Program-made: the position numbers and the translations under genes
DNA from: Ceratodon purpureus
Taxonomy: Eukaryota > Streptophyta > Bryopsida > Pseudoditrichales > Ditrichaceae
DNA length: 64,000 bases
Direction of reading: 5' to 3'
Assembly: GCA_014871385.1 (NCBI GenBank)
Contig: CM026429.1
Coordinates: forward strand, 1,834,554-1,898,553
Shown: in pieces, positions 1 to 45,423 of the stretch
How the letters are laid out: each line of letters starts with the position of its first letter
Numbering within the stretch: the stretch's first letter is position 1
The notes under the pieces: generated by a model
The model's database searches: none
The model's input: only the letters and a program-made list of their open reading frames with translations
Told to the model about the DNA's origin: nothing

Positions 1-569
1 TCTTGAAACTTAATAAATCCCAAATAGATTTTAACTTCACCTTGATTTGGCGCTGGCGTCATCTGGTGCTCGAGATTGATTTCCTGACACGTCCCGTTGG
101 AGGCATTAAATGAACTCCCTAAACTGTACAACCACCGGCTGCTTTGTTAAAAAATCTTGGAAAATATAACCATCAGTAATATGGCAGAATTATTAATGAT
201 GCCGTAAGTACTTCTCGTCGGATTTTAAAAATGCCGTTAGTGCTTCTCGCCGGACAGCGTATTGCAGTTCGAATTTGCAAAGGGCTTACTAGGTTGTTAA
301 ATGACAAGCTAATGGTCGAATGGCGCCGGCGCCAATTGAACTCGGGGGGGATCCCAAGGTTGCAACCGTTAAAATCAATCCATCCACTCAAATTCGTTCA
401 GGAAAGTTATCTCATGAAATGTATATGAGACTCTCTCCAGGATTCTCCGTCACTCCAAATCAGAACAACAAAGAGGAGGCTTGTGATATTCGGTAGACTG
501 TAGCTTTGGGTCGATCCACATTGTAGCAGATTGAGAAATTGTCCCTTCTGCATCGACGGCATTTCAAGG
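1..569. other. Non-coding stretch upstream of the RING-H2 gene
   Basis: I see no convincing gene here. It holds a degenerate copy of the dispersed palindrome at 49-60 (GGCGCTGGCGTC) and a perfect copy at 322-333. The second lies about 240 bp upstream of the ATG at 570. The frame used by the downstream gene stays open back to about 531 and is preceded by a possible splice acceptor (tgtagcag), so an upstream exon or 5' UTR intron is possible. Confidence 0.5.
322..333. repeat. Dispersed palindrome GGCGCCGGCGCC (perfect copy)
   Basis: This is a 12-bp self-complementary motif, TGGCGCCGGCGCCA with its flanks. Other non-array copies, perfect or with one to a few changes, start at about 49, 1985, 2187, 2581, 2945, 3297, 3652, 4405, 6220, 8855, 19329, 19762, 32560, 32930, 34554, 34779 and 36331. 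One copy also sits in each macrosatellite unit. I found none between 36.35 and 64 kb. Confidence 0.9.
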
Positions 570-1424
570 ATGCCGCCATCTCGAATTGCGTCAATACTGG
601 CCCATAAGGCAGAGTTAGTTATCGATGCAGAACGGCGTGTTCAGATTGCCCGAATTGAAGAGCGCAGTGTTTGTGAGCAATTCGAGTTAGACGTGCCGGA
701 GCTGCCGGAGGAAGGGGCACAGCGCAATGTCGTGCTGGAAGCGGATGGGGTTTTGCGCGATGTTCATTCTCGATATTTGCTGTGTTTAGCATCAGTTAAG
801 GATGCCTTAACTCAGGCGCAGAGGATAGATGCGATGACAACCGATGCAATTGTAAGGATGGAAACTAGAGCGAACTTGATGGAGCTAAGAGAGAAGCAGT
901 TAGAACTTCACCACGACCGTCTGCGTGCGGAGCTTGATTTACGCGCCCTTCCTGGATTCCAGGACTCATCGAGTATCTTAGCAAAGCTTCTGAAAACTCA
1001 AAGGGAGTTGGAGAAACTTCAGGAAGAGTACCAGGAACTTCAGGCCGATCGGCGCATGGCGGTCGACACTCTAAGAAACTACGGTGAACACACTCAGCTC
1101 AGCTTGTCGAAGCGAATTCATCTCCCGAGAATTCCTTTACGAGATGACGGAAGACGTTGCGAGATGTGCAACACTGGATTTCCGGCAGGGGAAGTGGAGA
1201 TTTCACCGTGTGGTCACTTTTATCACATCTTTTGCTTGGCGATTCGAGTCGCGATGTACCCAGAATGTTGCGGTCGTGGGTGCACTGTTCCGTTTCCTGC
1301 ATGCTGGCTTCAGAATTACGGGTTCCCTTCGCAGACAGTCGCTGACTCAGACACGGGCAGCTCGTCTACCGACAACGACAGTATTAACGGTGTGGTTGCT
1401 CCGTCCACCTCATCCTCCTTTTAG
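570..1424 (+). CDS. RING-H2-like protein with coiled coil, orphan gene
   Basis: An intronless reading frame of 284 residues from the ATG at 570 (open upstream to 531 without an ATG). Residues ~75-170 are rich in Leu, Glu, Gln and Arg in heptad-like spacing, which suggests a coiled coil. A C-terminal zinc-binding pattern follows: C197-x2-C200, C214-x-H216-x2-H219-x2-C222, then C233/C234 and C238. This is RING-H2-like, but the last pair is irregular (CCGRGC instead of CPxC). The tail is Ser/Thr-rich. By family knowledge a RING-H2 domain would recruit an E2 enzyme, so a ubiquitin ligase role is inferred. The gene lies in the palindrome-marked zone with a perfect palindrome 237 bp upstream. I recognise no ortholog. 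A missing upstream exon (the CPFC just before this ATG) cannot be excluded. Confidence 0.6.
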   Translation: MPPSRIASILAHKAELVIDAERRVQIARIEERSVCEQFELDVPELPEEGAQRNVVLEADGVLRDVHSRYLLCLASVKDALTQAQRIDAMTTDAIVRMETRANLMELREKQLELHHDRLRAELDLRALPGFQDSSSILAKLLKTQRELEKLQEEYQELQADRRMAVDTLRNYGEHTQLSLSKRIHLPRIPLRDDGRRCEMCNTGFPAGEVEISPCGHFYHIFCLAIRVAMYPECCGRGCTVPFPACWLQNYGFPSQTVADSDTGSSSTDNDSINGVVAPSTSSSF

Positions 1425-2519
1425 TGAAACTTGATCATTTCGCATAATGAGGACTCACTAACTATGAAGGGTCTTGCCTGTGATATTCTTACAGACTTGG
1501 AAGACGTAAACGAGGTGCTGAGTGTTCAAGCTGATCAAGTAGTCCCCGGCCCCAGCACTTGTCGGTCCCCGCCAACGCCGCTCTTTAAGCGGCCAAGAGT
1601 TTTGTAGGCTTGGTTTGCTGTACCCGGACCAACTTACAAACTCGGATCTAGTTACAAACGCTTTCTTTATGATGCAAGCGTTTTTTTAGGCACACTCAAG
1701 CGAATATACAGTTTTTACCGAATTAGATCCTGTCGCAGTCATTCTTACTATTCTTAATGTTCTGTAATATTTTTAATATTTATGGTCCCATTTCATATAC
1801 AAAACTGCCATGTATGACCTCTACCATTTATATCTGTATTATCATTTAGAATGTGGCAATCTGGTCAACTCTGAGGGAGGTAGCACAGCAGGAGCCCTTG
1901 AGCATTATGAATCTTTCCTTTTCATTGGCATAATCCACATGTTCATAGTGAGACTTATGGAAGAGTGTATGACTGCCCTCTGGTCGCCGGCGCCATCTTC
2001 CTCCTCAATCTCGAATTGCTTGGGGGATGCTATTCCTGGCTGATGCTACTTGCATTTGACTTGGTGCTTAGTTTTTCTTCTTGCAGCTTGTTTCTTTTGG
2101 ATAGATCGGATATGTCCTTGTCCTTTCAATCCTAATCCGTGAATCCTAAAAGTCATGATCAGACAGTATATAGTTTTAACAGCAATGGCGCCGGCGCCAT
2201 TGCCATCCATTGTTTCAGTCGTCTAAAATGTTTTGATAAACTGAATTCTAGAATTCTGCTCCAGAATGCTGGAAAAGTGTTTCTGATTGCTTGGACTTTC
2301 GTTGCTTTGGGAACGCTCTATTTGTAATCTTCATTGGTTCCCTTTATAGTCAGAAGTATTTCACATGTCGTTTGATACGCTATCAGCCGAGGGAACGTGG
2401 TATTTGCTTTCATACTTGTGACTGGCCTTCTCATAATTTGATATCCAACCCATCCTAGATTGGCTACCATGTTCAGATGCTACCCTCGAAAGTCTCCGTC
2501 AAGCCATTCCTGCTAATTG
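1425..2519. other. Non-coding stretch with palindrome copies
   Basis: No gene seen. It holds an imperfect palindrome at about 1985-1994 and, at 2182-2203, a copy whose symmetry extends to a perfect 22-bp palindrome (GCAATGGCGCC followed by its reverse complement). Short ORFs here are unremarkable. Confidence 0.6.
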
Positions 2520-3850
2520 TTCCGTTACGAAGTAATGCTGCCAATAAAATGAATCGTTTATGATACAATTTGACAGAGTTGGCGCCGGCGCCATGACCAT
2601 TAACTTGTCAGTGCAATTGCAACGTTGATCTAAACTTAATTCGGTTTGGTCCGCCTGAGATGGCACATGCTTCGAACTGACTGTTGTTCCCTAGACATGA
2701 TGCTTGTATTTTGCTGATTGTTTTCTTTTAAGACTGCATTTCAGGGCGACCCTGCTAACTGCGCACTCGTCTTGCAGCTTGGTATTAGCTTCCGATGTTA
2801 TGACTGGTACTTGCTTGCATTGTATGTGGTCATTGCATGCATTGTATGTGGTCATTGCATGCATTGTATATTGACCTAGCTTGCATAAGCCGTGAAACCT
2901 GCAGCTCATAGAATGAATTGTTTGTGTATTAATTCGACAGTGTTGGCGCCAGCGCCATGACCACGCAGTTGGCAGTGGAATCGAAATGTTCCTCTAAAGT
3001 TATTCGGATTCGTCAGCTTGAGAATTTTTGCGGGACATGACATATGCTTTGAACTGAGTGACTGTTTTTCTTTTGACTTGATCCTGGTAGTGTTTTTCGC
3101 TGATTCATATATTCCTAAGCAGCGTTTTAATTCGACCCGTTGAACTGCGCACTCGCTCTAGCACAGTGGTATTTGATTGCGATAACGTCACTGGTAGTTC
3201 CTTGCATTGGTTGAATTGATTATGGACTTTGCTTGCATAAGCCGTGAATCCTGCTGCAATTAATATGAGTTGATTGTGTATTAATTAGACAGAGTTCGCG
3301 CCGGTGCTATGACCTCTAATTGGGAGTGAAATCTCCATGTTCTCTATAACTATATCATTCGGATTGGACTGCTTGAGAATTTATGCGAGTAATGCTTCGA
3401 ACTGAGTGTTCTTCTTTTGAGTTGATGCTGGTAGTGTTTTTCGCTGATTGTTTTTCTAAATAGACTGCATTTCGGTGCGACCTTCAAACTGAGCACTCGG
3501 TTTTGCAGCCTGGTATTTGCTTGCGAACTCATGATAAGTACTTCCTAGCATTGATTGTGGTCATTGCTGGCATTGTATGTGGGCTTGCAAAGGCTGCGAA
3601 TCCTGCTGCTAAAAACAAAATGTATTTTTTCTGTACGGAATCGACAGTGTTGGCGCCGGCGCAAGGACCTTCTATTTGTCAGTGCAATTTCGATGTTCCT
3701 CTTCACATCTTTGGATTGGTCTAATTGACAATTTTCACGGGGGATAGCATATGCTTCGAACTAAATGTGTTGGACTTTTGACTACATGGTGGTACTGTTT
3801 CTCGCTGGTAATGTTTATCCCCGCATGCAATTCAGTTGGATTCTGCTCGG
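2520..3850 (+). repeat. ~355-bp tandem repeat, about 4 units, each carrying the palindrome
   Basis: Palindromes at 2581, 2945, 3297 and 3652 are spaced 364, 352 and 355 bp. Each is preceded by similar sequence (tgtattaattcgacag, then tgttggcgcc) and followed by CATGACC or a close variant. Units share a stretch reading roughly ctgattgttttcttt, then ttgcagcttggtat, then a run like gtacttgcttgcattg. Units are clearly diverged, so this is an older tandem family than the 861/892-bp array. Parts of the unit recur near 34,780-35,070. Confidence 0.75.
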
Positions 3851-5160
3851 GCTGTACTTGTGTTGTGTTGCAGCTAAACTCGGGGTTTTTGATTTGAATA
3901 TTGTTTTTTCGTTTGGTGATCGCTAGCGGGTTCGTTTCGTCTGTTTTTATATAATTTCCCCCTACTTAACAGAAAGAGCCAGTTACTCACTCTGTTTGCT
4001 CACCGTTTTATTATTCTCATGAGCTCCCTCACTTCTCCTCCTCATTATCGATTTCGGCAACGCTACAGCACTTACAATATGTAAAATTAAGTCGGTGCTT
4101 TTCCCATTATCCTGCAGTTCTTGTCAAGCTAAAAGTACCACATACCATTTGTACCGACTGCACTAGTCAGACAATGACGTCTGTACTTGAATCCCCGGAT
4201 ACTACTACTATTCGAATTGGGGAGTGTTTGACTTAATTTGGTCGTCGTATCATACTGCATGTTCTGATCGTTGAGTTCATTTTCGCCCCTTCCCTACTGC
4301 TAACTCGGTCCCTCAGTTCAAATTTCCTGGATTTGCGTGACTGGCATATAAGCGTGACTGGCATATAAGCTGATAATGGAGACTATCGCCGAGTCAGTCC
4401 TCATGGCGCCGGCGCCAAATGAGTCAACATGTGTATGGAATTCTTCCATAATCAGTCAACCAACCATATCCGAGCTTCGGTTCGACGGAATAGATTTCTC
4501 TCCCACCTTATCATTGATTCAGTGCTGTCCCCTTGTGCGCAATCACTTTTCTGCAACTTGTCTACTCAGCCGGAACACGGCATACTAATTAATCAACATT
4601 TAGAGTAGAATTGATTTCGTAATTACGTGTCTAATAACAACTTGCACTACAATGCACATCCTCCGGTAAAACTGCAACACTGAAGAAAGCAACTTGCAGT
4701 ACATTTCAAATCCTATAAACAGAATCACGGCACAAAACCATTCAAGAGAATCCAACTATAACTGTTGTTTCCACATTTCTAACGCTACAACTTGGCAAGC
4801 ACACTTCTAACTACACATCCAAAAGCACTTCCAACATATTCTACTCCGAAATTCTATTATAACGGGAAGCAAGGGACACATTGCCATCCAAAATCATTAC
4901 AAATATAACCAATTCCACTGCCAAGATTGAGGTCTGTATACAGGTGACTAATAATCGACATCGCAAATCTCGATGGGTCTGAAGACAGTTTTCAGCACGA
5001 AATTTGGCGGCTCCACTCCGAGTAAAAATTTCATACTACCGTGACTATCAATTATCAAGTAATGTTATGGACCACATGCGCGTAATTCAAGCTTATACCA
5101 AACCGGTCTCATTGCAACTCAGAGCTCGCTTCTCTCTCCGATCAAACTAAACGAAGACCG
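3851..5160. other. Non-coding stretch with 17-bp duplication and palindrome
   Basis: No gene supported. A 17-bp direct duplication (gtgactggcatataagc type) lies at about 4336-4371. A perfect palindrome at 4405-4416 is flanked exactly as in the macrosatellite (TCCTCAT before, AAATGAGTC after); here the right flank completes TGAGTCA, an AP-1/GCN4-type bZIP site. Confidence 0.55.
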
Positions 5161-5817
5161 TTACACGTGGACAGCATTCACAGTTGCATTCACGTTTTGA
5201 ATCCTTCGACCACTTACAGAACCTCCGCAAATCCAGCTCTCTTCCACACGCCTCCAGGATGTGATTGTCCGCAGCTCCCCTTCATCGGTGGACAAACTAT
5301 CATCAATGGCAAGAACGCCTAGCTTCGCATACGCTTCGTCAAAGTATTCATCTTTCCAGAAGTCAACTCTTAGAAATATTGGACCCAAAGGGGCAAGGGG
5401 CTGAGTAAAGCACATTGCGATACAGTTTCCGCTGGGCCAATTATTACCCTGTCCCCTTGGAGGATCTGGACTATCGGCCACCGGCGGCACTTCGGGAGCC
5501 ATTAATCCGCCACCCAGGGCCTCCTTGAATCCATGGCCATGCTCCCAGACATACAGAATCATACACTTCATCCTTTTGACAGCGCGCTCCGGGACTTCAC
5601 TCGACGGATCCTGAAATCGAACTGGGCATGATAATACTTTGAGCAGCCACGTCTTTAAGTTCATAGAATAGTCCTCCGGCCCCTCGTAAAGTGAGTAGTC
5701 CACTGGCGAGGAAGCGTCAAGCTTGCGAAGCAGGATATCGCCGACCTGGGGATGATCGAGTGACCTGTTGAATAAAGCATACTGGATCGAGCCAGTAACA
5801 AGGTAGAGGGGAGTCAT
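5161..5817 (-). CDS. Hypothetical protein, 218 aa
   Basis: An intronless reverse-strand frame from an ATG at 5817 to a TAA at 5161. I recognise no family. The protein is mixed polar and hydrophobic with no obvious transmembrane segment or signal peptide. A Pro/Gly-rich central stretch (residues ~115-135) separates an N-terminal part with several Leu-rich helices from a C-terminal part with Trp/Arg pairs. It is divergently arranged with the F-box-like gene at 6345, leaving a 527-bp shared intergenic region that contains a GGCGCCAGCGCC palindrome. Length and composition argue for a real gene, but no homology supports it, so it could be a chance ORF. Confidence 0.45.
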   Translation of the reverse strand: MTPLYLVTGSIQYALFNRSLDHPQVGDILLRKLDASSPVDYSLYEGPEDYSMNLKTWLLKVLSCPVRFQDPSSEVPERAVKRMKCMILYVWEHGHGFKEALGGGLMAPEVPPVADSPDPPRGQGNNWPSGNCIAMCFTQPLAPLGPIFLRVDFWKDEYFDEAYAKLGVLAIDDSLSTDEGELRTITSWRRVEESWICGGSVSGRRIQNVNATVNAVHV

Positions 5818-6219
5818 TGCAAGCAAAGTAGAGAGTGAGGCAGAACGATACCGAGTCCCAGCGAGGTTTATACTTGACCCCGAAGTTCAACATTTAATCC
5901 CACACATGTCAAGTTACAAATTTGAATGTTGCTTTAGAAAAGCCGTATCATGAGAATCTTAAAAAAATACAATATTTCTTGCGGCACTAACTTCAACCGC
6001 CATTTTGAAGTGTGCAGAGGTGACAGTACGTTTTTACTGAGTGCTTCTGTATTCGTTTTTCTGCCATCTATGTTAACTCCAACGACTACAGTAGCCGCCA
6101 ACAGCAACATACAGCACAGAAAACTACGTCCTCATATATGAATATTAACATGGTACGGGATCAATAACTCGGTAATATGGTGATAAATACTTTGGAGTAA
6201 CGTTCGCATGTATCCGTTT

Positions 6220-6231
6220 GGCGCCAGCGCC
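6220..6231. promoter_or_regulatory. Palindrome copy upstream of a TATA box
   Basis: GGCGCCAGCGCC (one change from the consensus), preceded by GTTT so that TTTGGCGCC is formed. It lies about 60 bp upstream of the TATA box of the F-box-like gene. TTTGGCGC matches the E2F consensus; binding is inference only. Confidence 0.4.
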
Positions 6232-6290
6232 ATCCCCTTTGGACATGCTGACATTTGAAAACGCCTATTCCAGAGTGCTCTACTTCCCCG

Positions 6291-6299
6291 TATATAAGG
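6291..6299 (+). promoter_or_regulatory. TATA box of the F-box-like gene
   Basis: TATATAAGG lies 54 bp before the ATG at 6345, as expected for a TATA box with a transcription start near 6320-6325 and a short leader. Confidence 0.6.
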
Positions 6300-6344
6300 T
6301 GTGCAACAAACCATCCTTAACAACGTTTACACTTTCTAGGAGAC

Positions 6345-6996
6345 ATGTCTTTCATCGAGGGACTCCCGAACGAGGTCATAGTAGATGTCATCTTCCCGAA
6401 GCTCTTAGTTCCATTGAATCGCCGAAGGCAAATTATCTGTGACCATGATGCCATCATTATCCTCCTACACAGACTTCGAAGGCTGTGGGCAACATCCAAC
6501 CAATGGAAATCAAGAATCGAGGAGACAGTGGAATGGGCCGCGTGGAGACTGGGCCGATGGGAGGCCGACCTCTATGCAGCAGAATCCTCCGGCCCTGGTG
6601 CGAAATGCAAGCATGGTGCGGGTGTCCTTGAAATAGTGTCCCCAACTGTTTGAGAGTTCACGATTTTCCTCTCATTTCTAACGCTTTTTAATGATGTATT
6701 CATCTTGTGCAGGGTACTCTTTGGTGGATATAGATCCGATGCATCCACTGTTTGGGAAGTCAGATCCAGTTCAAAATTTCAAAATGAATGTAAACCACTT
6801 CTCCCGTTCGAAGGCGATTTGGGTTCAGTGCAAGAAACACCAAAAACTCAGCAGGAGGGAGTTGTTATCACCGTTGAGGGAGCTATCATTGATTGAGCTG
6901 CAGCGACTGCGAAACACTCTACAGAAGGCTGTAAGAGCAAAGGATAAGTCGTCGGCCGGGCAAACATGGGTGACTCCTCAGGATAGGTTAGACTAA
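6345..6996 (+). CDS. F-box-like protein, two exons
   Basis: Exon 1 is 6345-6621 and exon 2 is 6713-6996, with a GT-AG intron of 91 bp (donor G|GTGTCC, acceptor TTGTGCAG). The join is in phase (GCG-G|GG-TAC) and gives about 186 residues. The start is the ATG 54 bp after a TATA box. Residues ~6-20 read LPNEVIVDVIFPKLL, the hallmark first half of an F-box, which binds SKP1 in SCF ubiquitin ligases. Exon 2 encodes a Lys/Arg- and Leu-rich C-terminus (LSLIELQRLRNTLQKAV) that may be helical. No Kelch or LRR repeats are visible, so the substrate side is unknown. It lies in the palindrome zone and is divergent to the gene at 5161-5817. The F-box assignment rests on one short motif. Confidence 0.55.
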
Positions 6997-7939
6997 AGTC
7001 ACAGGTCATCGCAAATCAATTCGCAAGGGCGACTAACCTACCCGCTAGAACAACAAACAGCAGAATCCGCTCATGCAAACAGGGCTTGCAGATAATTTAA
7101 CAATGGCCAGTGCCATTTCAGTATCATTTCATTCGACCTTTCCACTGCGACTGAATTCTTTTCTAGACGTTGATAGAAATATCGCGTATACTATTGGTTC
7201 TGTATTTGTTTTTAGAGTGGACACCCTTTAAAGATTCTACATTGAATGTAATGGAATCGTTTTCACAGACTCCTAGAGTACATTTTCGCATAACGCCTCC
7301 CTCCATTTCATTAGCCGGAAAACTCAAATTCGAGTTCATGTCTGACTTCACTACTGCCATGTCCATGTATGCATCATCTAGTACTACATTGCTTAAGAAA
7401 ACAGCACACGAGATTAGAAGAGTAATAGTCGTACTCACATCAAAACCACATCATAAGGAAAAAACAAACGGATAACATCCCAAATCTTTCGAGCTGTACA
7501 TCACAAAAATAGCAAATATATGGCGACCAAAATCTTTAATTAGAATCAATTCAGCACTTCTAATGATATTTGAATTGCTCAATCGCACTCTCTGAAATCA
7601 TGAAAAGCAGTTAAGATAAATTTTACAATACAAAATTCATAGAAATTATCGTATGACACCTTGTGGCAATTATTCAGGCTCTATTATCTAGGTTAGAGTA
7701 CTTATCGATTATATCTGGGAGTGAGGACTTTCCAAATAAAATAGAAGCCCAGCAATTTAGAAGCAATTTCTACAGTGAAAGCAAATAACAAACTGGTAAC
7801 TAACTAAATAAATGACAGAATTTACTCCTACCAATTACCCACGAGCCTGTAAATGGTTGGGCTACATTGCATATGGTCGGGCTCACAAGTCACTCTGAGA
7901 GCAATGTTGAAGTCACTCTGAGAATTCATGCTACGACTT
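6997..7939. other. Intergenic, no gene seen
   Basis: AT-rich sequence with only unremarkable ORFs on both strands. A short direct repeat (agtcactctgagag type) occurs near 7890-7922. Confidence 0.5.
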
Positions 7940-8866
7940 CTGATAAAAGTTGATCATGTAAAGATTATGAAGACAATCCTTTTCCTGATAAAGGATGTTC
8001 TGAAAGCGACGTCAGAATTCGATATTCCAGTTTGGGTGCTCATTATGCCAGTTTGATCCGGACTCTGGCGAATTTCGTTGGCGACTTACGTTGCTCCTTC
8101 CGATTTCTCGCGTTAAGTAAACCACACCGAGGGTACTGAGGATTGCCAAGTGACGAGGGTAAATCGGATAGCGTCGGCTAAATACATGAGCTAGACCCAG
8201 TAATTACGAAGCTCGGGCTGCGGGGGTTCGAACCGTGAAGCGCGGAACTCTGGTAAATCAAGTATTTTCAGCCTTTCTTGACCTGCTGTTCAGTGGAATA
8301 CTTAACGCTAGTATCTTCGCCGTGGAGGACATTGCTCACAAGTATTGATCTTGTCTCCCATTTGTTTCATTTCGGGAGAATTCATTTCGTTTTTTTCAAG
8401 TTTTTTACTTTTTATAAATTTCCGTCACATTAAAATTTGTAGCTCCAATCCAATTGCCACCAACGGCGACTGAGTCCTAATTTTTATGCAGAAGTTGAAA
8501 AACGCCTGTACTTGACAGCGTCGCTTTGACACTGGAAGAATTGTCATAGTCGTTCCTAGCTTGGGTTAGCTCCAGTATGAAGAAATGTGAATGCAGAAGT
8601 ACGTGATGCTTGGGTTGGGCGAGCTTCAGTATGCAGAGATATGAAAGCACAAGTTTGTGATGGTTGGCTAGAACCACAAACATATTGATTATCGTATCAC
8701 CTGAAGAGCTTGGGGATACATTATACTGTTGCGGAGACATTATTCTGTTGTTAATTAAAGGGAAGTAGACCTACAAAACTTACTTTAATCCAAGGAAACT
8801 GACTAAACACTTTAAACTAGCTTGTGTCTTCTTAGAACTAGCTGCTTTCCTGTTGGCGCCGGCGCC
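7940..8866 (+). repeat. Diverged dispersed copy of the 861/892-bp macrosatellite unit
   Basis: Collinear with the array units at 20-30 kb: ggatgttctga, gtcagaattcgatattcc, the 31-bp A-type segment, ccaagtgacgagggta, gcgggggttcgaaccgtgaag, the mid-unit segment, and ttctgttgttaattaaag. Its internal palindrome has decayed (around 8455-8475), but the palindrome opening the next unit at 8855 is intact and followed by AAATGAGTCC. It carries the 31-bp segment that B-type units lack, so the A type appears ancestral. Confidence 0.85.
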
Positions 8867-8966
8867 AAATGAGTCCTTGAAAATCACCTTACTGAATCTT
8901 TTAAAGAATTACCTTTCATTGAAAGTTCCGCGACCCTGTTTGAACTCCAATAGTTACACTATGCTC

Positions 8967-9300: not shown

Positions 9301-9309
9301 ACAAGTTAT

Positions 9310-9311
<2 letters not shown>

Positions 9312-9377
<66 letters not shown>
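9312..9377. repeat. (TA)n microsatellite
   Basis: About 33 uninterrupted TA dinucleotides. It marks the right end of the partial macrosatellite copy and the left edge of the AT-rich island. Confidence 0.95.
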
Positions 9378-9381
<4 letters not shown>

Positions 9382-9721
9382 AATTGTTACGGAAATATTA
9401 TGTCTTCAATGGAATGGTTCGTGCGGTTGACTTGAAGATATAGATAGCGGAATCAACGTTTAGTGGAGGTTTGGCACAGTCGTGCAGGAGTAGCCAGACG
9501 TAGTATTTTACATGTTTTTTTAAATTTACTCGATTACCACTAGTCCAGGGATTTCTGTTCATTATTTTCAGGTTTAAACTTATTCTCTACCCGTGGTTTA
9601 TATCTCGAAATTATCAAATTTGAGAATATTGAATTTTCTCGCAATGTAATAGGTTCATACATTAACTACATATGAACCTCAGAGCCATAGCTCAATATCG
9701 TGCAGTGGTGCGCTTGGCCGT

Positions 9722-28800: not shown

Positions 28801-30710
28801 CTGTTCAGTTCAATAGTTAACACTATTATCAGCCCTCGGCCGTGGAGGACTATTAGTCACGAGTATTGGTCTTGTCCCTCTTCTTTATTCTCACAGTATT
28901 TTAGGATCGTCTTCGCAAGAATTCATTTCGAGTTGGCTGAGTTTTTTATTTCTCTAAAAAATTCCGTCACCTGAAATTCAGGTGCTCCATTCCTCATGGC
29001 GCCGGCGCCAAATGAGTCCCAATTTTCATGGAGAAGAGGAAGAGCGCCTGAACTTGAAGCAGCCGTGTTGAGGGCGTGGCTTTGACTGTGGAAGAAATAT
29101 ATCAGAGTTTCCTAGCTTGGGATAGCTCCGTGGGGATAAATTGTATAGACACATATACATTCAGTATCGTATCAACTGAAGGATAAGTTATTGTGTTGCG
29201 GATACATCATTCTGTTGTTAATTAAAGAGAAGTAGAATATTAACTTACAAAACTTACCTTCATCCAAGGAAACTGGGTAAACACTTTCTCCACTTGCATT
29301 TGCTATGATGGCCATTTGAAAATCTCCAAGCATTTATGCCGTGAATTATGATAAAGGAATTAACATGCAAAGATTCTGAAAAAGGATGTTCTGAGAGCAA
29401 CGTCAGAATTCGATATTCCAGTTTGGGTTATAATTACGTCAGTTTGGTCCAGGCCCCATCCGATTTCTCTCGTTAACTAAACCACACCGAGGCCAGGTGC
29501 CAAGTGACGAGGGTAATAATGATAGCGTCGGTAAATATATCAGCTTGGCCCAGTAATTACGAATACCATGGGATAAATATTGCCAAGCACAGGCTGCGGG
29601 GGTTCGAACCGTGAAGCGCGGAACTCTGAGAATTCAAGTATTTTCAGGCTCTCTTGTCCTGCTGTTCAGTTCAATACTTAACACTATTATCAGCCCTCGG
29701 CCGTGGAGGACTATTAGTCACGAGTATTTTTGTCCCTCATCTTTATTCTCTGAGTATTTTAGGAACGTCTTGGCAAGAAGTTCTTTATTTCTATTAAAAA
29801 TTAAGTCACCTGAAATTCAGGTGCTCCAATCCTCATGGCGCCGGCGCCACATGAGTCCAATTTTTTTTGGAAAAGAAGAAGACCGCCTGAACTTGAAGGA
29901 GCCTTGTTGAGCGAAGACAGTGGAAGAAATGTCTCGGTCCTTCCAACCATGGCACAGCTTCAATATGCACAGATGTGAATGCATAAATACGTGATAATTG
30001 GCTTGGGCTACCTGAATTAACAGTGTGCAGAGATGTGATAGCATAATTGTGTTGCGGATACATCATTCTGTTGTTAATTTAAGGGAAGTAGAATATTAAC
30101 TTACAGAACTTACTTTGATCCAAGGAAACTGAGTAAACACTTTCATGCCCATTTGAAATCTCCAAGCATTTATGCCGAGAATTATGATAAAGGAATTAAC
30201 ATGCCAGAATTCGATATTCCAGTTTGGGTTATCATTACTTCAGTTTGGTCCAGGCCCCATCCGATTTCTCTCGTTAACTAAACCACACCGGAGCCAGGTG
30301 CCAAGTGACGAGGGTAATAATGATAGCGTCGGTAAATATATCAGCTTGGCCCAGTAATTACAAATACCATGGGAGAAATATTGCCAAGCACAGGCTGCGG
30401 GGGTTCGAACCGTGAAGCGCGGAACTCTGAGAATTCAAGTATTTTCAGGCTGTCTTGTTCTGCTGTTAACTTCAATACTTTACAGTACTATTAGTCACGA
30501 GTATTGGTCTTATCCCTTAACTCTATTCTCTCAGTATTTTAGGAACGTCTTGGCAAGAATTCATTTCGAATTTATTGAGGTATTTACTTTTATTTCTGGT
30601 GCTCCAATCCTCTTGGCGCGGGCGCCATATGAGTCCTAATTAAAGACAATATGAATATCACTTTACAGAACTTAGCTTAATCGAAGGAAAGTGAGTAAAC
30701 ACTTTGACCA
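19859..30710 (+). repeat. Macrosatellite: tandem 861- and 892-bp units
   Basis: The palindrome recurs at 20233, 21094, 21986, 22878, 23739, 24631, 25492, 26384, 27245, 28106, 28998, 29837 and 30615. The spacings are 861, 892, 892, 861, 892, 861, 892, 861, 861, 892, 839 and 778 bp. The ten inner intervals have only two exact lengths, differing by a 31-bp segment; the last two are shortened and diverged. Every unit holds CACCTGAAATTCAGGTG (or a near form) just before the palindrome, a GGTTCGAACC box, and no long ORF. All units point the same way. Edge units are more diverged than inner ones, the pattern expected from unequal crossing-over. I see no transposase, reverse transcriptase or rRNA sequence in the unit. 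Confidence 0.97.
22336..22575 (+). other. 79-codon ORF present in A-type macrosatellite units
   Basis: An ATG-to-TAA frame identical in the four A-type units (also at 24089, 25842 and 28456). In another A unit (near 21526) one substitution turns CGTTAA into CGTGAA and a different frame is read. B-type units lose it through the 31-bp (non-triplet) deletion. Part of the frame is also open in the diverged copy at 9.1 kb. No family recognised; expression is unproven and it may simply be a chance ORF copied by amplification. Confidence 0.25.
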
Positions 30711-30837
30711 TTTGATCATGGTGCTGATTCGCCATGATTTGGTTCATGGCCGCATCGGCATGCATACAAGCAGAATTTAGCCAAGATGAATCAGCCATGG
30801 TATGATGATTAGTAGCAGATGATCTGGATACAAAAAA
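30711..30837. other. Short spacer between macrosatellite and TIR element
   Basis: No gene; it contains several catggt/ccatga-rich near-symmetric words of no clear meaning. Confidence 0.4.
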
Positions 30838-31592
30838 TTAACCCCTAAACGCCTAAACGACCAAAAACTTGTCGATGTCATTTTTCCAAGTTCCAGAACT
30901 GTCATCCAAATGACAAATTTTCATCCATTTTTTGTGTTGAAAAGTTGTGGAGATCTATCTAACCTCATCAATGAATCCTCAAAATGATGATTTCATAAAT
31001 TTTGGTGCCTCCCTTAAGTCCAAAACGTCAATACCGTGTGTGTCTTCAAAAATTCCTTGAAACAGACAGCTGAAACGCAATTTTGACTATCGAGATGATC
31101 TTTTTTGCAATTGAGGTAAACAAATAAAATATAGCTTTACGAATCTACTTTCCATTCCAATTAAGAATTTCGAAAAAAACCTAAAATTGAGAGATTTATA
31201 GCTGGTATAAGATGAAGGGGTATAACCGTGGCTATTTCTTGTTTTTCCACGGTTTTAGGTTTTCTCATCATATCTTTGGATTAAAACATAATTTTTGAGG
31301 ACGGTAACCAGTATAAGGTTTTTGGTTGTCATATACATGTATGGTAAATATTTCGTAATTTTTTGATATAATCCATATTTGATATGAGTTTTCTTTGTTT
31401 GTTTTGAATTCAAAATTTATTATAATTACATAATGAAACCATTAATTTTAAAAATTATTGCTTGTAGATTACATGTGTTTCTATCTAAGAAAAATTAAAG
31501 TTTCATATTTTACATTATAATTAGTGGGAAAATAGAGCATCCACAGTTAAAGTCTATTCCCGTTGTCATAGGCTCAGGCATTTGGGGGTTAA
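30838..31592. mobile_element. TTAA-flanked TIR element, non-autonomous (747 bp)
   Basis: TTAA at 30838-30841 and again at 31589-31592 brackets a segment whose ends are imperfect inverted repeats: CCCCTAAACGCCT on the left, and CCCCCAAATGCCT when the right end is read on the other strand. There is no transposase ORF inside, so it would be a non-autonomous element. TTAA target duplications with C-rich ends are typical of piggyBac-type and Sola3-type transposons. The same end sequence bounds the element at 55.3 kb. Confidence 0.65.
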
Positions 31593-33290
31593 CATTCAGT
31601 TGTAGGAAATCAGTGGCACGGTGATCTCGACGGTGAAGAAACAGTTGGCCCACACCATTTTCGAAGTAATCCAAATAGCCAGCCGAGTTCCCACTGAGTA
31701 CTAGGTCTATTTTACAGAGTCAGAGATTGAGCGCATCAAGGATGTTTGCAAGGGCCGGTGGTATATGTTGACGTGTGATGCTGTAAGCGAAGTATACTTC
31801 AAGGTAAGAAATGTGGTTGTAAATTCCTAACTCAATCTGTCCACGGATCGCTGTTGGTAAGCTTTCGATAGGAAGACCATGCAGTGTTCTATGAGATGGC
31901 GGCAGTCTCTGTTTGTCTCTCATGTATTACTCGAATACATTTGAGTGAGTTTGCCGCCAACTCTTTTTCGCAGTCATCGGAATTCTGTGTTATGAAAATA
32001 GTCTCGTGATAGATAAGCCATGTTCATATGATATTGACAAGAGGATGGCTAAACTTTCAGTGAACTGTATCAGTTGTGCTTAGACGACCTTGGATGAGGC
32101 AATTAAAAGTAAACTTTGAAGGCATTTGTGTTGAGAGGGAAATTCGTTACCAAGTTCACTATTTTGGGAATTCGTTTGATGATAGAATATGTTAAAGTAG
32201 TGGGGACTTTATTGCGTATGAAATCAGACATGCCGAACGGGCTTCACGACAACATCACCAGTCAAAATCACCTGTGATGATAGTCTGAGAGAGTATAGGT
32301 GATGTCAACACTCGATTAACCTGATCCTGCAGATTTTTACATCCTCGAGCTCGTTTAATTTGTGATTTACTCATTATATAGGTTGTTACATCATTCCATA
32401 GACTGTTTTAATAATTGATCGAGCATAATCTGCAATCTAGCAGCTAGCAGCCGGCATTTGATTTTTGGTCACGACACTAGGACTGACGATAAGCACGTAA
32501 AAGTCTCTTAGCAGCTTCTGTTCATTTTGCCCTATCCTTCTCTTCGACTAAGTCCAAATGGCGCCGGCGGCATGACCCGAGAACAATGGCGCAATCCATC
32601 ATACTGACCTGATTCATAAATTGTTGCTGTACTTCGGTTCTGTTCCGTAGTGATTCTTACTTTGATTCCGAGTTGTCCTTGCCTTAATTTTTGAGCTTTA
32701 TCAGGGGTCTTCAACAGACTAACTTAGGTTTATTTTGTTTGGTCGCTTCATATCAACGGAGCGTGAAATTAGCGTGGCGGAGCGAGACTGAGTAAAGCTG
32801 CTTCACAACAAATTCAACAATCCAACCTCCCTGGCCATCGAGAATGTGAAGCACGCACGTCCTTAGATGCTATTTCGACTTTGCAGCCCAAAGTATCATC
32901 CGCATCTAATCGAGGACGTGGTCATCAATGGCGCTAGGGCCAAAGAAAACACGATTGGCTTAATGACCGTTGACAACCTTTATATTCTCCTTGGAACCTG
33001 AGCTGTTGAGACTAGAAGGTGTTGCAGTCATGGAATCCTAGCAGTAATGAGAAGAGGAGTTACAGTTTTCCGGAGTTAGGAGAAGAGGGGTTACAGTTTT
33101 CCGGACCTGGACTTCACGAGAGCCGCATTCCAGAAGTGACTAAGTCGGAGAGCCTGGTGGGAGCACGTCACTTCACCCTTTTACGAGTACCAGTAAGCAA
33201 GTCTACGACAATGATGAGGATCCTGCCGAAACTAAGGTTTCGTACATTGAATTGAAAATACTAGATCGAAGTTTTGCATGACATCCAGCA
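31593..33290. other. Mostly non-coding, with palindrome variants
   Basis: Palindrome variants lie at 32560 (followed by CATGACC, as in the 355-bp repeat) and about 32930. A reverse-strand ORF of 67 codons (31720-31923) starts with ATG and reads RTLHGLPIESLPTAIRG, but has no supporting context. At 33058-33102 a 17-bp phrase (gttacagttttccgga) is repeated. A frame at about 33019-33255 could be an upstream exon of the gene beginning at 33406. Confidence 0.4.
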
Positions 33291-33405
33291 GGCATGCAGT
33301 CGGCTCCATGTCCATTTCCTTAGTTTTGCATGGTTTCGTATCTGGTGACTTTGAGATTACATCCAGCAGGCATGCAGGGATGATCACTATGATTCTCCGC
33401 ATTTG

Positions 33406-33957
33406 ATGAGCCTAGGATGGTATATCGAGGACAGTGAAAGATTCACCAACTACCTCGACTCCGCGGACAAGATCCTCCGAGATCAGGTGCTTCTACAGAT
33501 CCAGGCTACAATGGATGCGTCCCTGCCAGAGAAGGCTGCGGTTCTTTCGGAGACACTGCAGATGGTCAAGTCGCAGGTTGAGAGCTCCGATCGCGATGGA
33601 AATGGCGCCCGTGACATGGTATCTCTCACCCCATCGTCTGACCTACTTGGTGCGCTTGAGGGTAGAGTCAGTTATGTTTACGTCCCGGTTACTAACAATG
33701 GGTTGCTGATGCATTATGGCCCCATTCTATTTACTGAGCTGCAGGACCTAATTGAATCATCAAAACGGGGAGATATTTCGCAAATCGAAGACGCGAATGA
33801 TGTCATTAGGGGGTTCTCGGGGACATGTCGAAATCGGGAACTGCCGATGAAGACGACGATTTACAGTTTCTACGCCAGACTCAGGGAGAGCCGATTGGCA
33901 AGCCGGCTGAGGGTGAGGGTGATCGTCGAGGTCCTACGTTGCGGCCTCGTATTGTGA
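33406..33957 (+). CDS. Orphan ORF 1 of duplicated gene, copy 1
   Basis: 183 codons from the ATG at 33406. The first ~70 residues are Leu/Glu/Asp-rich and probably helical (DSADKILRDQVLLQIQATMD), then a Ser/Asp linker, then a hydrophobic stretch (RVSYVYVPVTNNGLLMHYG). The natural protein may leave this frame before the end: the last ~45 codons overlap ORF 2, which starts at 33825 in the -1 frame and looks equally coding. An intron in the overlap, or a -1 frameshift, could join them, but I cannot decide. No family recognised. An identical copy lies at 35182. Confidence 0.45.
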   Translation: MSLGWYIEDSERFTNYLDSADKILRDQVLLQIQATMDASLPEKAAVLSETLQMVKSQVESSDRDGNGARDMVSLTPSSDLLGALEGRVSYVYVPVTNNGLLMHYGPILFTELQDLIESSKRGDISQIEDANDVIRGFSGTCRNRELPMKTTIYSFYARLRESRLASRLRVRVIVEVLRCGLVL

Positions 33958-34364
33958 AGGAAACACGTGAGCAGGAGGCCGGTTTAAACAGTCAAGTGGC
34001 ACCCCATAAACGACCGCCTTCGAAGTCCGGGAAGAAATTTCATAAAGCTGGCGAGGATGCAATACCCCTCGTTAGATATATGGCCCTCCCTGTCGATGGC
34101 GTGGCAGAGACAGTTAAATTGTCCCTAAATATTGCCTTTGAGTCGCTCCTCGAGGGCATTCACCGATCGATGTTCATCACTTTCCTGAATTGCATCAAGC
34201 GGGTGAGTTATTTTAAACCTTCATTTGCATATGGTTATATAGCAGTTTGTGTACCGCGCTCTTGTGGTGATCGTATACCTGCAAGCTTGCGGCTCTCTTT
34301 ACTAATTCGAGCTTCTCGGTTTGCCTCGGATTACCATTTCCCTGAATTCCCGTCTGCAGTCTAG
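33825..34364 (+). CDS. Orphan ORF 2 of duplicated gene, copy 1 (probable exon to 34202)
   Basis: An ATG-initiated frame overlapping ORF 1 by 133 nt in the -1 frame. An in-frame TAG about 20 nt before the ATG prevents extension upstream. The N-terminal part is charged (DEDDD, then basic KRPPSKSGKKFHK), followed by a hydrophobic, helical part (PVDGVAETVKLSLNIAFESLL). A strong 5' splice site, AAGCGG|GTGAGT, lies at 34202/34203, so coding sequence probably ends there and continues in an exon I could not identify. Function unknown. An identical copy starts at 35601. Confidence 0.4.
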   Translation: MSKSGTADEDDDLQFLRQTQGEPIGKPAEGEGDRRGPTLRPRIVKETREQEAGLNSQVAPHKRPPSKSGKKFHKAGEDAIPLVRYMALPVDGVAETVKLSLNIAFESLLEGIHRSMFITFLNCIKRVSYFKPSFAYGYIAVCVPRSCGDRIPASLRLSLLIRASRFASDYHFPEFPSAV

Positions 34365-34476
34365 AATACCCGTCTCAGCTTGTTCGAAGTGCTCCTCACT
34401 TGTGTGAGATTATTTTCTGATTTACTTATGGGGGCCGCAATATCATTTCACAAGTCAATGGGCGCCTAACCTGTAA

Positions 34477-35066
34477 TTTGCGTCTACAAATGACGATTTT
34501 TCTGGTAAAGCTTTTGTTTAGAGGTATCACTGGAGATCGCTTTTGGTAGACATGGCGCCGGCGCCAACAGCAAGTCCCTTACTCATTTATTTCTGATGCA
34601 GTAATTAGAGGTTCTCAAATGCCGAAGCACGCATTCAGTATATGCTTGCTGCACTTGTAATTGGCTTCGAAGTCAATTTTTCGAGGAGTTATCTCAGGGA
34701 TTGATGGCAGGATGGTCTGTTGCAGATTCCTATAGATACTGTTCATTTCTTTACCGACCTAATTCATAAAATTGGCATGGCGCCGGCGCCATTGGACCAT
34801 CCTTCTCATGGTCGCTGTATAATTCTTGCTTTTGATAATTTGAATTTCTCTTTCTAATAATGCCTTTGTGGACCTGTCAGATCAATGGTGGCATGATGGT
34901 GTAGCTAGCCCCAACTGCGTCGACTTGATTATTTGCGATACACCGGACAATAACAGGGTGCCTAGTGTATTGGGAAATGTTCCCACGTGGAACATGGTGA
35001 AGAAGTCCACTTTTGCAGCCATATTTCACATTGCAGTCATGACTCGTACTTGCTTGAATTGTATGT
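34477..35066. other. Spacer between duplicated copies
   Basis: Holds perfect palindromes at 34554 and 34779, a segment alignable with 36253-36480, and, from ~34780, pieces of the 355-bp repeat (ending near gtacttgcttgaattg at 35047). A frame at ~34868-35015 (SDQWWHDGVASPNCVDLII) precedes an acceptor-like cttttgcag and may be an exon piece, unproven. Confidence 0.5.
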
Positions 35067-35181
35067 GGCATGCAGTCGGCTCCATGTCCATTTCCTTAGT
35101 TTTGCATGGTTTCGTATCTGGTGACTTTGAGATTACATCCAGCAGGCATGCAGGGATGATCACTATGATTCTCCGCATTTG

Positions 35182-35733
35182 ATGAGCCTAGGATGGTATA
35201 TCGAGGACAGTGAAAGATTCACCAACTACCTCGACTCCGCGGACAAGATCCTCCGAGATCAGGTGCTTCTACAGATCCAGGCTACAATGGATGCGTCCCT
35301 GCCAGAGAAGGCTGCGGTTCTTTCGGAGACACTGCAGATGGTCAAGTCGCAGGTTGAGAGCTCCGATCGCGATGGAAATGGCGCCCGTGACATGGTATCT
35401 CTCACCCCATCGTCTGACCTACTTGGTGCGCTTGAGGGTAGAGTCAGTTATGTTTACGTCCCGGTTACTAACAATGGGTTGCTGATGCATTATGGCCCCA
35501 TTCTATTTACTGAGCTGCAGGACCTAATTGAATCATCAAAACGGGGAGATATTTCGCAAATCGAAGACGCGAATGATGTCATTAGGGGGTTCTCGGGGAC
35601 ATGTCGAAATCGGGAACTGCCGATGAAGACGACGATTTACAGTTTCTACGCCAGACTCAGGGAGAGCCGATTGGCAAGCCGGCTGAGGGTGAGGGTGATC
35701 GTCGAGGTCCTACGTTGCGGCCTCGTATTGTGA
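35182..35733 (+). CDS. Orphan ORF 1 of duplicated gene, copy 2
   Basis: Same protein as 33406-33957, residue for residue. Its upstream flank differs: here the copy is preceded by 355-bp-repeat-like sequence rather than the 33.0-33.29-kb flank, so the two copies may have different promoters or first exons. Confidence 0.45.
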   Translation: MSLGWYIEDSERFTNYLDSADKILRDQVLLQIQATMDASLPEKAAVLSETLQMVKSQVESSDRDGNGARDMVSLTPSSDLLGALEGRVSYVYVPVTNNGLLMHYGPILFTELQDLIESSKRGDISQIEDANDVIRGFSGTCRNRELPMKTTIYSFYARLRESRLASRLRVRVIVEVLRCGLVL

Positions 35734-36140
35734 AGGAAACACGTGAGCAGGAGGCCGGTTTAAACAGTCAAGTGGCACCCCATAAACGACCGCCTTCGAA
35801 GTCCGGGAAGAAATTTCATAAAGCTGGCGAGGATGCAATACCCCTCGTTAGATATATGGCCCTCCCTGTCGATGGCGTGGCAGAGACAGTTAAATTGTCC
35901 CTAAATATTGCCTTTGAGTCGCTCCTCGAGGGCATTCACCGATCGATGTTCATCACTTTCCTGAATTGCATCAAGCGGGTGAGTTATTTTAAACCTTCAT
36001 TTGCATATGGTTATATAGCAGTTTGTGTACCGCGCTCTTGTGGTGATCGTATACCTGCAAGCTTGCGGCTCTCTTTACTAATTCGAGCTTCTCGGTTTGC
36101 CTCGGATTACCATTTCCCTGAATTCCCGTCTGCAGTCTAG
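35601..36140 (+). CDS. Orphan ORF 2 of duplicated gene, copy 2
   Basis: Same protein as 33825-34364. The probable donor is after 35978. Downstream sequence differs from copy 1 only beyond 36252. The palindrome past it is GGCGCTGGCGCC at 36331, the last one in the window. Confidence 0.4.
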   Translation: MSKSGTADEDDDLQFLRQTQGEPIGKPAEGEGDRRGPTLRPRIVKETREQEAGLNSQVAPHKRPPSKSGKKFHKAGEDAIPLVRYMALPVDGVAETVKLSLNIAFESLLEGIHRSMFITFLNCIKRVSYFKPSFAYGYIAVCVPRSCGDRIPASLRLSLLIRASRFASDYHFPEFPSAV

Positions 36141-36252
36141 AATACCCGTCTCAGCTTGTTCGAAGTGCTCCTCACTTGTGTGAGATTATTTTCTGATTTA
36201 CTTATGGGGGCCGCAATATCATTTCACAAGTCAATGGGCGCCTAACCTGTAA

Positions 36253-39200
36253 ATCGCGTCTACAAATGATGAGGTTTACTGGTATAGATTTTGTTTAGAG
36301 GCATTACTGGAGGTCGCATTCGGTAGACATGGCGCTGGCGCCTGCAGCAAGTCCATTACTCATTTATTTCTGATGCAGTAATTAGAGGTTCTCAGATGCC
36401 GAAGCACGCATTTAATATATGCTTCATGTACTTCTTATTGGTTTCGAGGTCAGTTTTGCGAGGAATTATCTCGAGTTTCATTGGTTTCATTTGGAGAGAA
36501 GACTCGCGGTCAGAAAAGGGAGCTCGCACCTACTCATCATACTCAGTCACAGTATTTTGTACATATGATGTACGATTGCATCCGTTCTCTATACGTGTAG
36601 AGTACATATTAGAAGTTCGTACTTTTGCGGTCTGTATTCTGGGGATCGTTATCCAAAGTTCATCGTATGGATGATGTATTTGGATACAGATACGTACGGT
36701 CTTTGTATCGTATTCCACTTTGATTTTTGTCAACTAGCAGTGGATGAATGCGCGGCATCTGAGAGTTTTCTCATTACTGCTGACTTTCTCGTCACTGACA
36801 GATTTTGAGGAGGAGGCCTATCTTTGTACAGATTCTGCCTATATATCTACCTGTGCACCCTCAACGATGCACTCTCATTCGCTGTCCTCCATTGCTTGAA
36901 CAGCAATTCTTGCAGCAGGTTGTAGCAATTTCAGCCCCCTCTACCTCGTGTGCAGCGCCACCCTGACCACCAACACTTTCAAAAGGAAAAGAAAAGGAAC
37001 AAAGTCTGTTACTGCACACAAGTTCTCTGCCTGTCACTTACTTAGAATTCTAACACAAACACAACACTGCTCATCTCCTCAGCTTCTCATCTCTAGCCGT
37101 GCCTCCGCCTTAGTGCTATGTAAGTTACTGCAGACTTCATGAATGTGCCAGCAAAGTACCCAAAAGTTGGTGTAGTTTTCTGGGGTTGGTAATGCATTGG
37201 CAGACATTTGCAATTGTAAGTATGGTTGATCTCCTACATGTGAATAGGTGGAAAACAAGTGAAAGAAGTCACTAGTGGAAAGATGGTATGGGGCAACCAT
37301 GGAGTATACTAGTGAGATGGTGGACTAGCATTTTACACCAACTCTCTGATATACTTGTTGGTTGCCTCAAACCCTCGTTCTACTAGTGAGTAGTCTTGAA
37401 TTGTTGGCAAACTTTTCCACGTAATGAATAAGTCTATTCTTTAATTCAATTCTTTTTCATATATGATGTATTATTTCATAACGCAATAAATATGGGCATG
37501 ATAATCTTTTTGTCTATATAATGTCCACTTTACAGAATGATAAAAACTATACTTAATTTTAGATATTTAGTTATGCAACCACCAAGTTTTAGACATTGAG
37601 ATATGCAACCACTAAATCATAATTGTTTAATGTTCAATTTAGGGTATTTAGAAACAAAAAATTTCTTACTTCATAAATCTCTCACCCAATTATTCATGTG
37701 AATGAAATTGTGATGGTAATAAGTGTAGGTTAGAGATCGCATTTGCTACAGTGAAAAAAATGGACTTGTAGAGAAAATAAAAATTTCCTTCATTGTAAAG
37801 TTAAGCTTCTTGTGAACGATGTAGAATGGCACCCTCTCTGATAACAAAAGAAATTATTGTCTTGTTTGAAATATGAATGTTAACTTGATAGTAAGCTAAT
37901 TGTGCACTCAGAAGTATTTTATTGGCATGCTGTAGAGCTACTAAGTCACTTGGATAGGTAATAGGTAATATTGTGTCGTACTGTGCAATAGGTAATAAGC
38001 ACTAATGGTGTATAGTAAGCCTACACCGTTATTAAGACATATTAATTGGAGAAAAGTGAGAGAAGATAATCACTTGCTTGTTCAGGTTGTAAAATGAGAT
38101 TCATGGGCTATACGAGAGGAATTTAATCATTGATGTAATTAGCAAACAAAGGAAGATAATCCAACCCCTCAAAATATGGACAGAATTCATATCGGTGAAG
38201 TCAATGAAATTTGGCATAAAAATGAATAAACTTACATGTGGATGAGTACTAAACTCCTATCTTTCAATGCGTTTCACCAATTTTGCCAACACATGTAAAT
38301 AGACCCTTACCCCAAAGCCACACCCTTGCAGCATCCCGAGGCAGGTAGCAAGGCAGCATCTCTCAAGTTCTAAACATCTCATCACATTTTCGTGCTGCCT
38401 TGTGGCAAACAATTTCATGCAAAGCTCACATCATCACCTAATCTATGGAAACCGCGTCATGGATGGCCCCATAGTCAGCTTTCTAGCTACAGTTCTGTTA
38501 AAGTTATGGTACCGTCCATATGCTGTACCAATGCACAGTGCATAAATGTCCTCATGTTCATAGTCACTTTTCCAAGTGTTTGAACATGACCCAGGTCCCA
38601 GTTTGTTGCAAGAGTAAGTTAGGTCTGGTACAGTCCATTCTTCTTGCTCTAGGATCTGCTTTCCAACAGGAAGGAAGGTACATACTAATAGACACTAGGT
38701 TCAGAGACGTCAGAATCCCAACAACTGCATCAACAGCAGTGGTTGTATCAAAATTCCTTCCCAGTTCCTGCAACGCAAAGTGGACGCCTGGCTCAGCAAC
38801 AACTCCCTCCCTTCTAGAATCTAGAATTTAGAAAGATAGAACATATTAAATCGGAAAGGTGGTCCAGCAAGGTGGCAAAAAGAGAATTGCCCTGGTGGAC
38901 CCTAAGGTGACTCAAGCAAGGTGACAATGATCTTTCGCCGTCCTGACGTGGGACCCTGGCATTGCTCCATCTCTATTTTACTACCATAAAAATGCCACTC
39001 TTTCACACCTGTTACAATGGCCCCACAAGCAGAGTCGCTTTGCTCCCAAATATCAGCACCTCGCAGCTCTCCTGGCCGAGATGGAGGAGCGCATCCCACT
39101 TGCATCGTTGGAAAATTGGGCGCCTGCCTGCGCTTGAAGCGATCGATCTGACTGATCATCTGCTTCTCTGTGTCCACTATCAGCCATGTCAGTACTGCTG

Positions 39201-45420: not shown

Positions 45421-45423
45421 GTG

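Follow-up and report, generated by a model that had tools for sequence, protein, structure and literature searches.

Giant Mutator-type DNA transposons dotted with a palindromic 14-bp dyad in the moss Ceratodon purpureus, and a possible role of the dyad in anti-silencing

Background

What is marked by a 12-bp palindrome, GGCGCCGGCGCC, that recurs in the first 36 kb of a 64,000-bp stretch of the genome of the moss Ceratodon purpureus (C9:1834554-1898553; this whole stretch is called the window below)? In a preliminary description the palindrome was read as the mark of a chromosomal compartment or boundary. Searches of the window and of the genome (362 Mb, 151 contigs) placed it instead in the interior of a giant DNA transposon, the right end of which lies at window position 36889. 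The results describe Mutator-type transposons of 47-63 kb that are dotted with a palindromic dyad, and it is proposed, as an evenly poised reading, that this dyad is bound by an element-specific dimer, leading to self-recognition and anti-silencing. The host moss has large sex chromosomes, the giant elements are numerous in it, and the dyad would offer a signal with which the escape of these elements from host silencing could be tested.

Results and discussion

The palindrome-rich region is part of a giant transposon

The first 36.9 kb of the window (1..36889; features cited without a strand have none assigned) are firmly established as the right part of a complete Mutator-type DNA transposon of 58,331 bp (C9:1813112-1871442), the left end of which lies beyond the window. 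Twenty-one of 49 genome matches ended at window positions 36888-36893 (query 789-794), and the element has inverted termini, the right one (36853..36889, minus strand, starting GAGG on that strand) pairing with the left end at C9:1813112, as read from the sequence. A 9-bp target-site duplication, CATTGCTTG, stands at both ends (36890..36898 and C9:1813103-1813111). A second complete element, of 47,117 bp, makes up the 21.8-Mb cluster of C1 and has ATGTTGCAA at both sides. A reading of the palindrome as a host element that sets a chromatin boundary or chromosome compartment, for which the sharp edge at 36.4 kb and the strong clustering of sites would speak, is scarcely credible and was rejected, since the edge is the end of a transposon with a target-site duplication, and genes and ends of such elements are scattered over the chromosomes.

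Further ends were found with a 3-kb query taken from the 20.3-Mb cluster of C1; this query had 84 matches in the genome. Nine copies (on C1, C4, C6, C8, C11 and C12) stopped aligning at a common point (query 1656-1671), two matches (the query itself and one on C4) continued past it, and most of the others represented a 600-bp repeat beyond the stop. The base at which these nine copies lose homology is one terminus of the element. The terminal core of this C1 subfamily gave 39 matches genome-wide, against three for a control, and pairing by hand joined 16 of the 39 into eight opposite-end pairs, 47-63 kb apart and each enclosing an exon of a ParB-like gene described below, with 23 ends left unpaired. 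The C1 element accounts for one of these pairs; the other seven all had a perfect 9-bp duplication at the predicted place (7/7, all different). Altogether, perfect 9-bp duplications, each distinct, were present in all nine elements (47-63 kb) for which both ends were found. The inverted termini are imperfect and about 27-37 bp long. For the C1 20.3-Mb element, a guessed pattern with which the left end was sought gave no match.

Two adjacent element copies occupy C1:20.2994-20.3453 Mb, their sites being offset by about 45.94 kb, and the C1 and C4 copies share flank past the element end, which suggests a larger duplication. The repeat of about 600 bp (L037:5629-6228) has inverted ends of about 31 bp and lies outside the element; its copies are 88-96% identical on many chromosomes.

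Members of the Mutator superfamily are described in PMC6446971 as having target-site duplications of 8-11 bp and terminal inverted repeats of 14-500 bp. The moss elements share with that superfamily the 9-bp duplications (9/9), imperfect inverted termini starting with G, and a long open reading frame (ORF) of about 1460-1506 codons. In this ORF an N-terminal zinc-like region, acidic residues of DDE-like type, a C/H pattern and a C-terminal SWIM-like CxC..CxH were recognised by eye, an order of DDE, C/H and SWIM-like motifs that we take to be the one known for Mutator transposases. Because profile searches of the long ORF gave no Mutator match in Pfam and nothing relevant in PDB, the elements are called Mutator-type by their ends and duplications, protein assignment aside. 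The usual length of Mutator-type elements is a few kb; the moss element is larger, has more genes (ParB-like/methyltransferase-like, RING and orphans) and lacks a Pfam Mutator match.

In size, and in moving several conserved genes as a unit over tens of kb, the element resembles giant DNA transposons such as Polinton/Maverick (reviewed in PMC6431247), but it has Mutator-like ends, and the 23 element ORFs and exons scanned (a subset of the ORFs) reached no Pfam cut-off, so that none was recognisable as a polymerase, integrase or capsid gene. PMC6431247 also states that a large cargo lowers DNA transposition. The 9-bp duplications are intact, and the protein of the ParB-like exon is 100% identical in three elements, the one on C1 and the two on C3, each of which has a duplication of its own. 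It follows that entire giant blocks have moved, and probably in recent times. In another 100% identical pair of this exon (C1 20.3 Mb and C4) the flank is common as well, and a larger duplication may account for it. An endogenous giant virus was considered and disfavoured once the transposon ends had been found; two single-protein scans of IMG/VR viral contigs, of a kind that detects close relatives only, returned no relatives.

The conserved unit is a 14-bp dyad

With up to two mismatches, the 12-mer had 29 matches in the window (range 49-36,342), relative to a mean of 0.25 in shuffled sequences, none of 100 shuffles reaching 29. The exact palindrome had 938 copies genome-wide, relative to 24 for the reversed pattern used as control, so that the earlier claim of a density beyond chance was borne out. 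The site counts given then were close: the 13 sites in a macrosatellite were recovered, each with at most one mismatch, while 16 rather than about 18 were found elsewhere at up to two mismatches. Two regions described as free of sites (9.4-18.6 kb and 36.4-64 kb) were indeed so at up to two mismatches, but at three mismatches two weak matches appeared (39340 and 41348).

The 12-mer itself had to be corrected as the unit, being the core of a conserved 14-bp dyad, TGGCGC-NN-GCGCCA. In 144 kb (the window plus eight 10-kb stretches from other clusters, one of them partly N), inverted pairs of TGGCGC and GCGCCA occurred 65 times at a spacing of 2 and at no other spacing between 0 and 30, and because the inverted half-sites are paired at spacing 2 alone, the motif is a dyad. 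Genome-wide, 1390 copies were found, relative to 2 in the reversed control. The 2-bp spacer is variable, with CG commonest, and in non-redundant contexts A/T is favoured just outside each half-site and C/G four bases out. The 103 distinct contexts fell into 52 families with less than 50% flank identity. Of the two flanking styles proposed earlier, AAATGAGTC proved to be a minor one (31 exact places genome-wide), and the ATGACC style, searched as TTGGCGCCGGCGCCATGACC, was found at 11 exact places.

Exact dyads lie inside the two complete elements read and not in their flanks

In the window, seven exact dyads (TGGCGCNNGCGCCA; 321..8867) start at 321, 2186, 2580, 2944, 4404, 6219 and 8854, and fifteen (19761..34791) at 19761, 21093, 21985, 22877, 23738, 24630, 25491, 26383, 27244, 28105, 28997, 29836, 30614, 34553 and 34778, all converted from distances to the left end of the element. 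The two complete elements that were fully read hold 52 exact dyads in 105,448 bp (C1: 20, C9: 32), whereas 42,552 bp of flank held none and two-mismatch dyads numbered one per flank set; in the host flank within the window (36899..64000) this was a match at 41347. Among the first 50 dyad places listed for the genome (all on C1), 46 lay in two clusters that also contain ParB-like exons (counted by hand). Lone 12-mer sites were found further along C1, at 24.2 and 26.6 Mb; lone sites may represent relics or have arisen by chance.

Most units of the tandem arrays (355, 861/892 and 1046 bp) contain one dyad each. The 355-bp and 861/892-bp repeats, initially regarded as unrelated families, are both parts of one transposon. 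The preliminary description had set against its own reading the case in which all copies belong to one ordinary transposon family. To a large extent they do, with exact dyads inside both complete elements read, none in the flanks and few isolated sites elsewhere, but the family is not ordinary (47-63 kb, multigene, 52 context families).

A promoter or enhancer function of the dyad, by which a host transcription factor, either E2F-like or some other dimer, would switch on the element genes jointly, is unlikely. Several dyads do precede element ORFs by 0.1-0.8 kb (for example RING, 'QVGDI' and a 434-amino-acid ORF), and the half-site GGCGC presumably resembles part of the E2F site, the core of which is TTTSSCGC. 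With gene starts chosen by hand, 5 of 20 dyads in the C9 element were within 1 kb upstream of a start, relative to 2.6 expected (P 0.10; 12 satellite dyads left out), but in the C1 element 5 of 20 compared with 3.8 expected (P 0.33). A promoter role alone is weak, because the dyads have no clear enrichment near gene starts. The E2F core TTTGGCGC, which the usual flank had been said to form, was rejected: TTT precedes GGCGC (that is, TT precedes TGGCGC, as E2F needs) in just 12 of 104 half-sites in non-redundant contexts. Dyads are also found within coding sequence and satellites, and a flank of 42,552 bp with no exact dyad would be odd for a host regulator.

Subterminal binding of a transposase, for which the TNPA sites of En/Spm are a precedent, would make the dyad a transposition signal. 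In the C1 element a dyad is found 0.4 kb short of the right end, and others lie 0.3-0.8 kb from the left ends of elements. This explanation is nevertheless very unlikely, as dyads span the whole interior over 47-58 kb and in the C9 element 2.1 kb separate the right end from the nearest exact dyad.

Sequence constraint on the dyad and the CpG content of the elements

Exact dyads inside BLAST alignments of at least 150 bp were compared between elements with 73-80% regional identity. In each of the 16 directional comparisons, which represent 8 distinct pairs, all 12 fixed bases were kept, relative to 7.1% of 8848 background windows. Dyads in the long ORF encode MAPAP within an otherwise fast-changing linker, and at the 15 MAPAP sites in eight long-ORF pieces (non-independent occurrences) the Ala codon was GCG in 30 of 30 cases, relative to 15% in the rest of the ORF, and the codon position that coincides with the spacer varies. 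Constraint thus acts on the DNA, because synonymous positions are fixed inside the dyad and the one in the spacer is free. For conservation at the DNA level, this codon evidence is stronger than the aligned-dyad comparison.

The ratio of observed to expected CpG was 0.79-0.99 in 11 element stretches, AT-rich dyad-free parts included (0.94 and 0.99), with single 2-kb windows ranging from 0.70 to 1.26. Flank stretches lacking the main genes had 0.28-0.68; for the window, the values were 0.90 in the element and 0.61 in the host flank. TpG/CpA was 1.08-1.17 inside elements, 1.17-1.35 in most flank stretches and 1.11-1.14 in three. The raised CpG content of the elements, a proxy measure, fits long-term protection from CpG methylation.

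The element genes include a ParB-like/methyltransferase-like protein

The clusters hold a common orphan gene block in which order is kept: a minus-strand orphan, a minus-strand multi-exon ParB-like/methyltransferase-like gene, the divergent long ORF, a RING protein and more orphans. ParB/Srx-like motifs and a part resembling beta-class methyltransferases were assigned by eye to the multi-exon gene. One of its exons, used as query, had 104 matches on C1 to C12, C26 and C33. In these matches, stop codons were counted by hand in 34 of 54 on C6 (a contig of 110.5 Mb) and in 6 of 50 on other contigs, the pattern that decay of copies on the sex chromosome would give. A second, distant ParB/Srx-like ORF family (L061-L065, on C3, C8, C4, C6 and C10) is 25-32% identical to the element exon. 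The DGNHR motif was present in 5 of 5 members read, several dozen copies were listed across the genome, a weak DUF1015 match but no ParB match was obtained with Pfam (DUF1015 in two of the five, E 0.15 and 0.16), and the family perhaps represents other large elements.

If this protein were to load at the dyads, it could mark, compact or segregate the DNA of the element in the manner of parS, or methylate it as self. In bacteria, ParB-parS and the KorB operators likewise combine dispersed palindromic sites on a mobile element with a protein, and the moss protein has ParB-like motifs; it differs in lacking a ParB profile match and in belonging to a plant nucleus, and its binding to the dyad is putative. 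The gene is present in all four islands that were sufficiently read, and the 104 matches of its central exon span the genome. Its N-terminal motifs IPLCR..VR and VWDGNHR are, on our assumption, of ParB/Srx type, and a weak Pfam N6_N4_Mtase match was below the cut-off (E 0.0018). Fusions of ParB folds to N6/N4 methyltransferases are known in phages, according to PMC12704722, in the text of which the strings 'moss', 'plants' and 'transpos' do not occur. The catalytic motif of the methyltransferase-like part is degenerate (CDTPDN) and the fold model of the central exon was useless, with a predicted local distance difference test score (pLDDT) of 46; a parS-like or self-methylation system is rather unlikely.

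A proposed role of the dyad in self-recognition and anti-silencing

The claim of the preliminary description that was kept as the best reading is a putative sequence-specific protein-binding site, and the dyad is very probably such a site. A palindrome with fixed spacing leads us to infer a dimeric protein. The dyad would be bound by a dimeric, element-specific DNA-binding protein, probably encoded by the element itself; the ParB-like/methyltransferase-like protein is one candidate, and the zinc-like region at the N-terminus of the long ORF is another. Since dyads are many, dispersed and multiplied by tandem repeats, such a reader could recognise the entire element, and once bound it may keep the element from silencing, as VANC proteins do for the VANDAL elements of Arabidopsis.

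VANC targets are short motifs that lie in non-coding regions and form tandem repeats, through which the VANC protein removes silencing (PMC5735166 and PMC10398659). VANDAL21 and VANDAL6 resemble the moss element in being Mutator-type and in having a short element-specific motif whose dispersed copies are mainly in non-coding DNA and often tandemly multiplied. They differ in motif, YAGTATTAY or AGTTGTCC as against a palindromic GC-rich dyad of 14 bp that is also present in a coding region, and in size, VANDAL being a small element and the moss one 47-63 kb. The element orphans scanned had no Pfam family above the cut-off. A VANC-like anti-silencing role of the dyad, suggested by this analogy and in keeping with the raised CpG of the elements, is tentative and judged a little short of even. 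Rather less likely, if conceivable, is an addressing system of the element's own, in which an element-encoded dimer (perhaps the ParB-like/methyltransferase-like protein) either protects the giant element as a whole from methylation or labels it as self, convergent with VANC and built from bacterial-type parts.

Several observations count against the proposal of an element-specific reader in a Mutator-type transposon. The aligned-dyad comparison favours exact words and covers part of the dyads (6 of 20 in the C1 21.8-Mb element); because BLAST seeding favours exact words, the true contrast in conservation is smaller. A few dyads are far from any ParB-like exon (of the 50 listed, one isolated at 130 kb and three near 2.7 Mb), and two of the 20 dyads of the C1 element fall in coding sequence of the long ORF, unlike VANC motifs, which occur mainly in non-coding DNA. 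Gene-bearing host stretches also reach CpG ratios of 0.71-0.95, and the high CpG of the elements can reflect young age or unmethylated gene-like DNA. The Pfam Mutator (MULE) transposase was not matched in any of the eight long-ORF members scanned, a PDB profile search with the long ORF gave nothing relevant, and a homologue search with part of it found none at E<=0.001. The ParB-like exon, finally, had no Pfam ParB match and no ParB in the PDB profile search, which also bears on the parS-like reading.

Mutator-type elements, VANC and parS are themselves known; what appears new is the combination of a Mutator-type transposon of giant size with a dispersed dyad that is VANC-like or parS-like. 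In the open-licence literature, the coverage of which is incomplete, no description of giant Mutator-type elements in mosses was found.

Further features of the element and of the host flank

The part of the C9 element in the window has a RING-type orphan ORF (helical region and RING; 531..1424, plus strand), an element gene that recurs beside the long ORF in other elements. Its fold model consisted of helices and a RING (pLDDT 75), the RING part resembling RNF165, which was matched at E 0.27 (probability 0.99; template-modelling score 0.75 by target); of 783 PDB matches to the model at E<=10, none reached E<=0.001. A tandem repeat with units of about 355 bp follows (2536..3819), every unit having a dyad or a decayed dyad and inverted relatives occurring in the left part of the element. 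Two further orphan families are an element gene of the 'QVGDI' family (5161..5826, minus strand; relatives at L039 and L005) and an ORF family in two pieces (6321..6993, plus strand; relatives at L035 and L038, the latter without Pfam match).

An AT-rich part without dyads (9313..18600), of which about 16.2-18.1 kb aligns to other elements, has a similar counterpart in the C1 element. Next to it is an orphan ORF (18648..19082, plus strand) common to other islands (L042, L047). The macrosatellite (19827..30553, plus strand) has 13 units of 861/892 bp, 12 with an exact dyad and one with a one-mismatch dyad, and related tandem arrays are present in other islands. Duplicated, inverted pieces of the ParB-like/methyltransferase-like gene (33355..36137, plus strand; methyltransferase-like piece at 34844-35179) precede the right end.

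An Rfam scan of the window gave no matches. In the host flank, a fragment of a DDE_1 superfamily transposase (46463-46843, minus strand; Pfam E 1.4e-14) is presumably pogo/Tigger-like. Host ORFs with PHD and RING fingers (recognised by eye; L054:2-6109), which we assume to be VIM-like, adjoin the C1 21.8-Mb element. Towards the end of the window, a host gene (60834-62636, minus strand) has a ZNF598 PAH domain and a RanBP-type zinc finger slightly under the cut-off.

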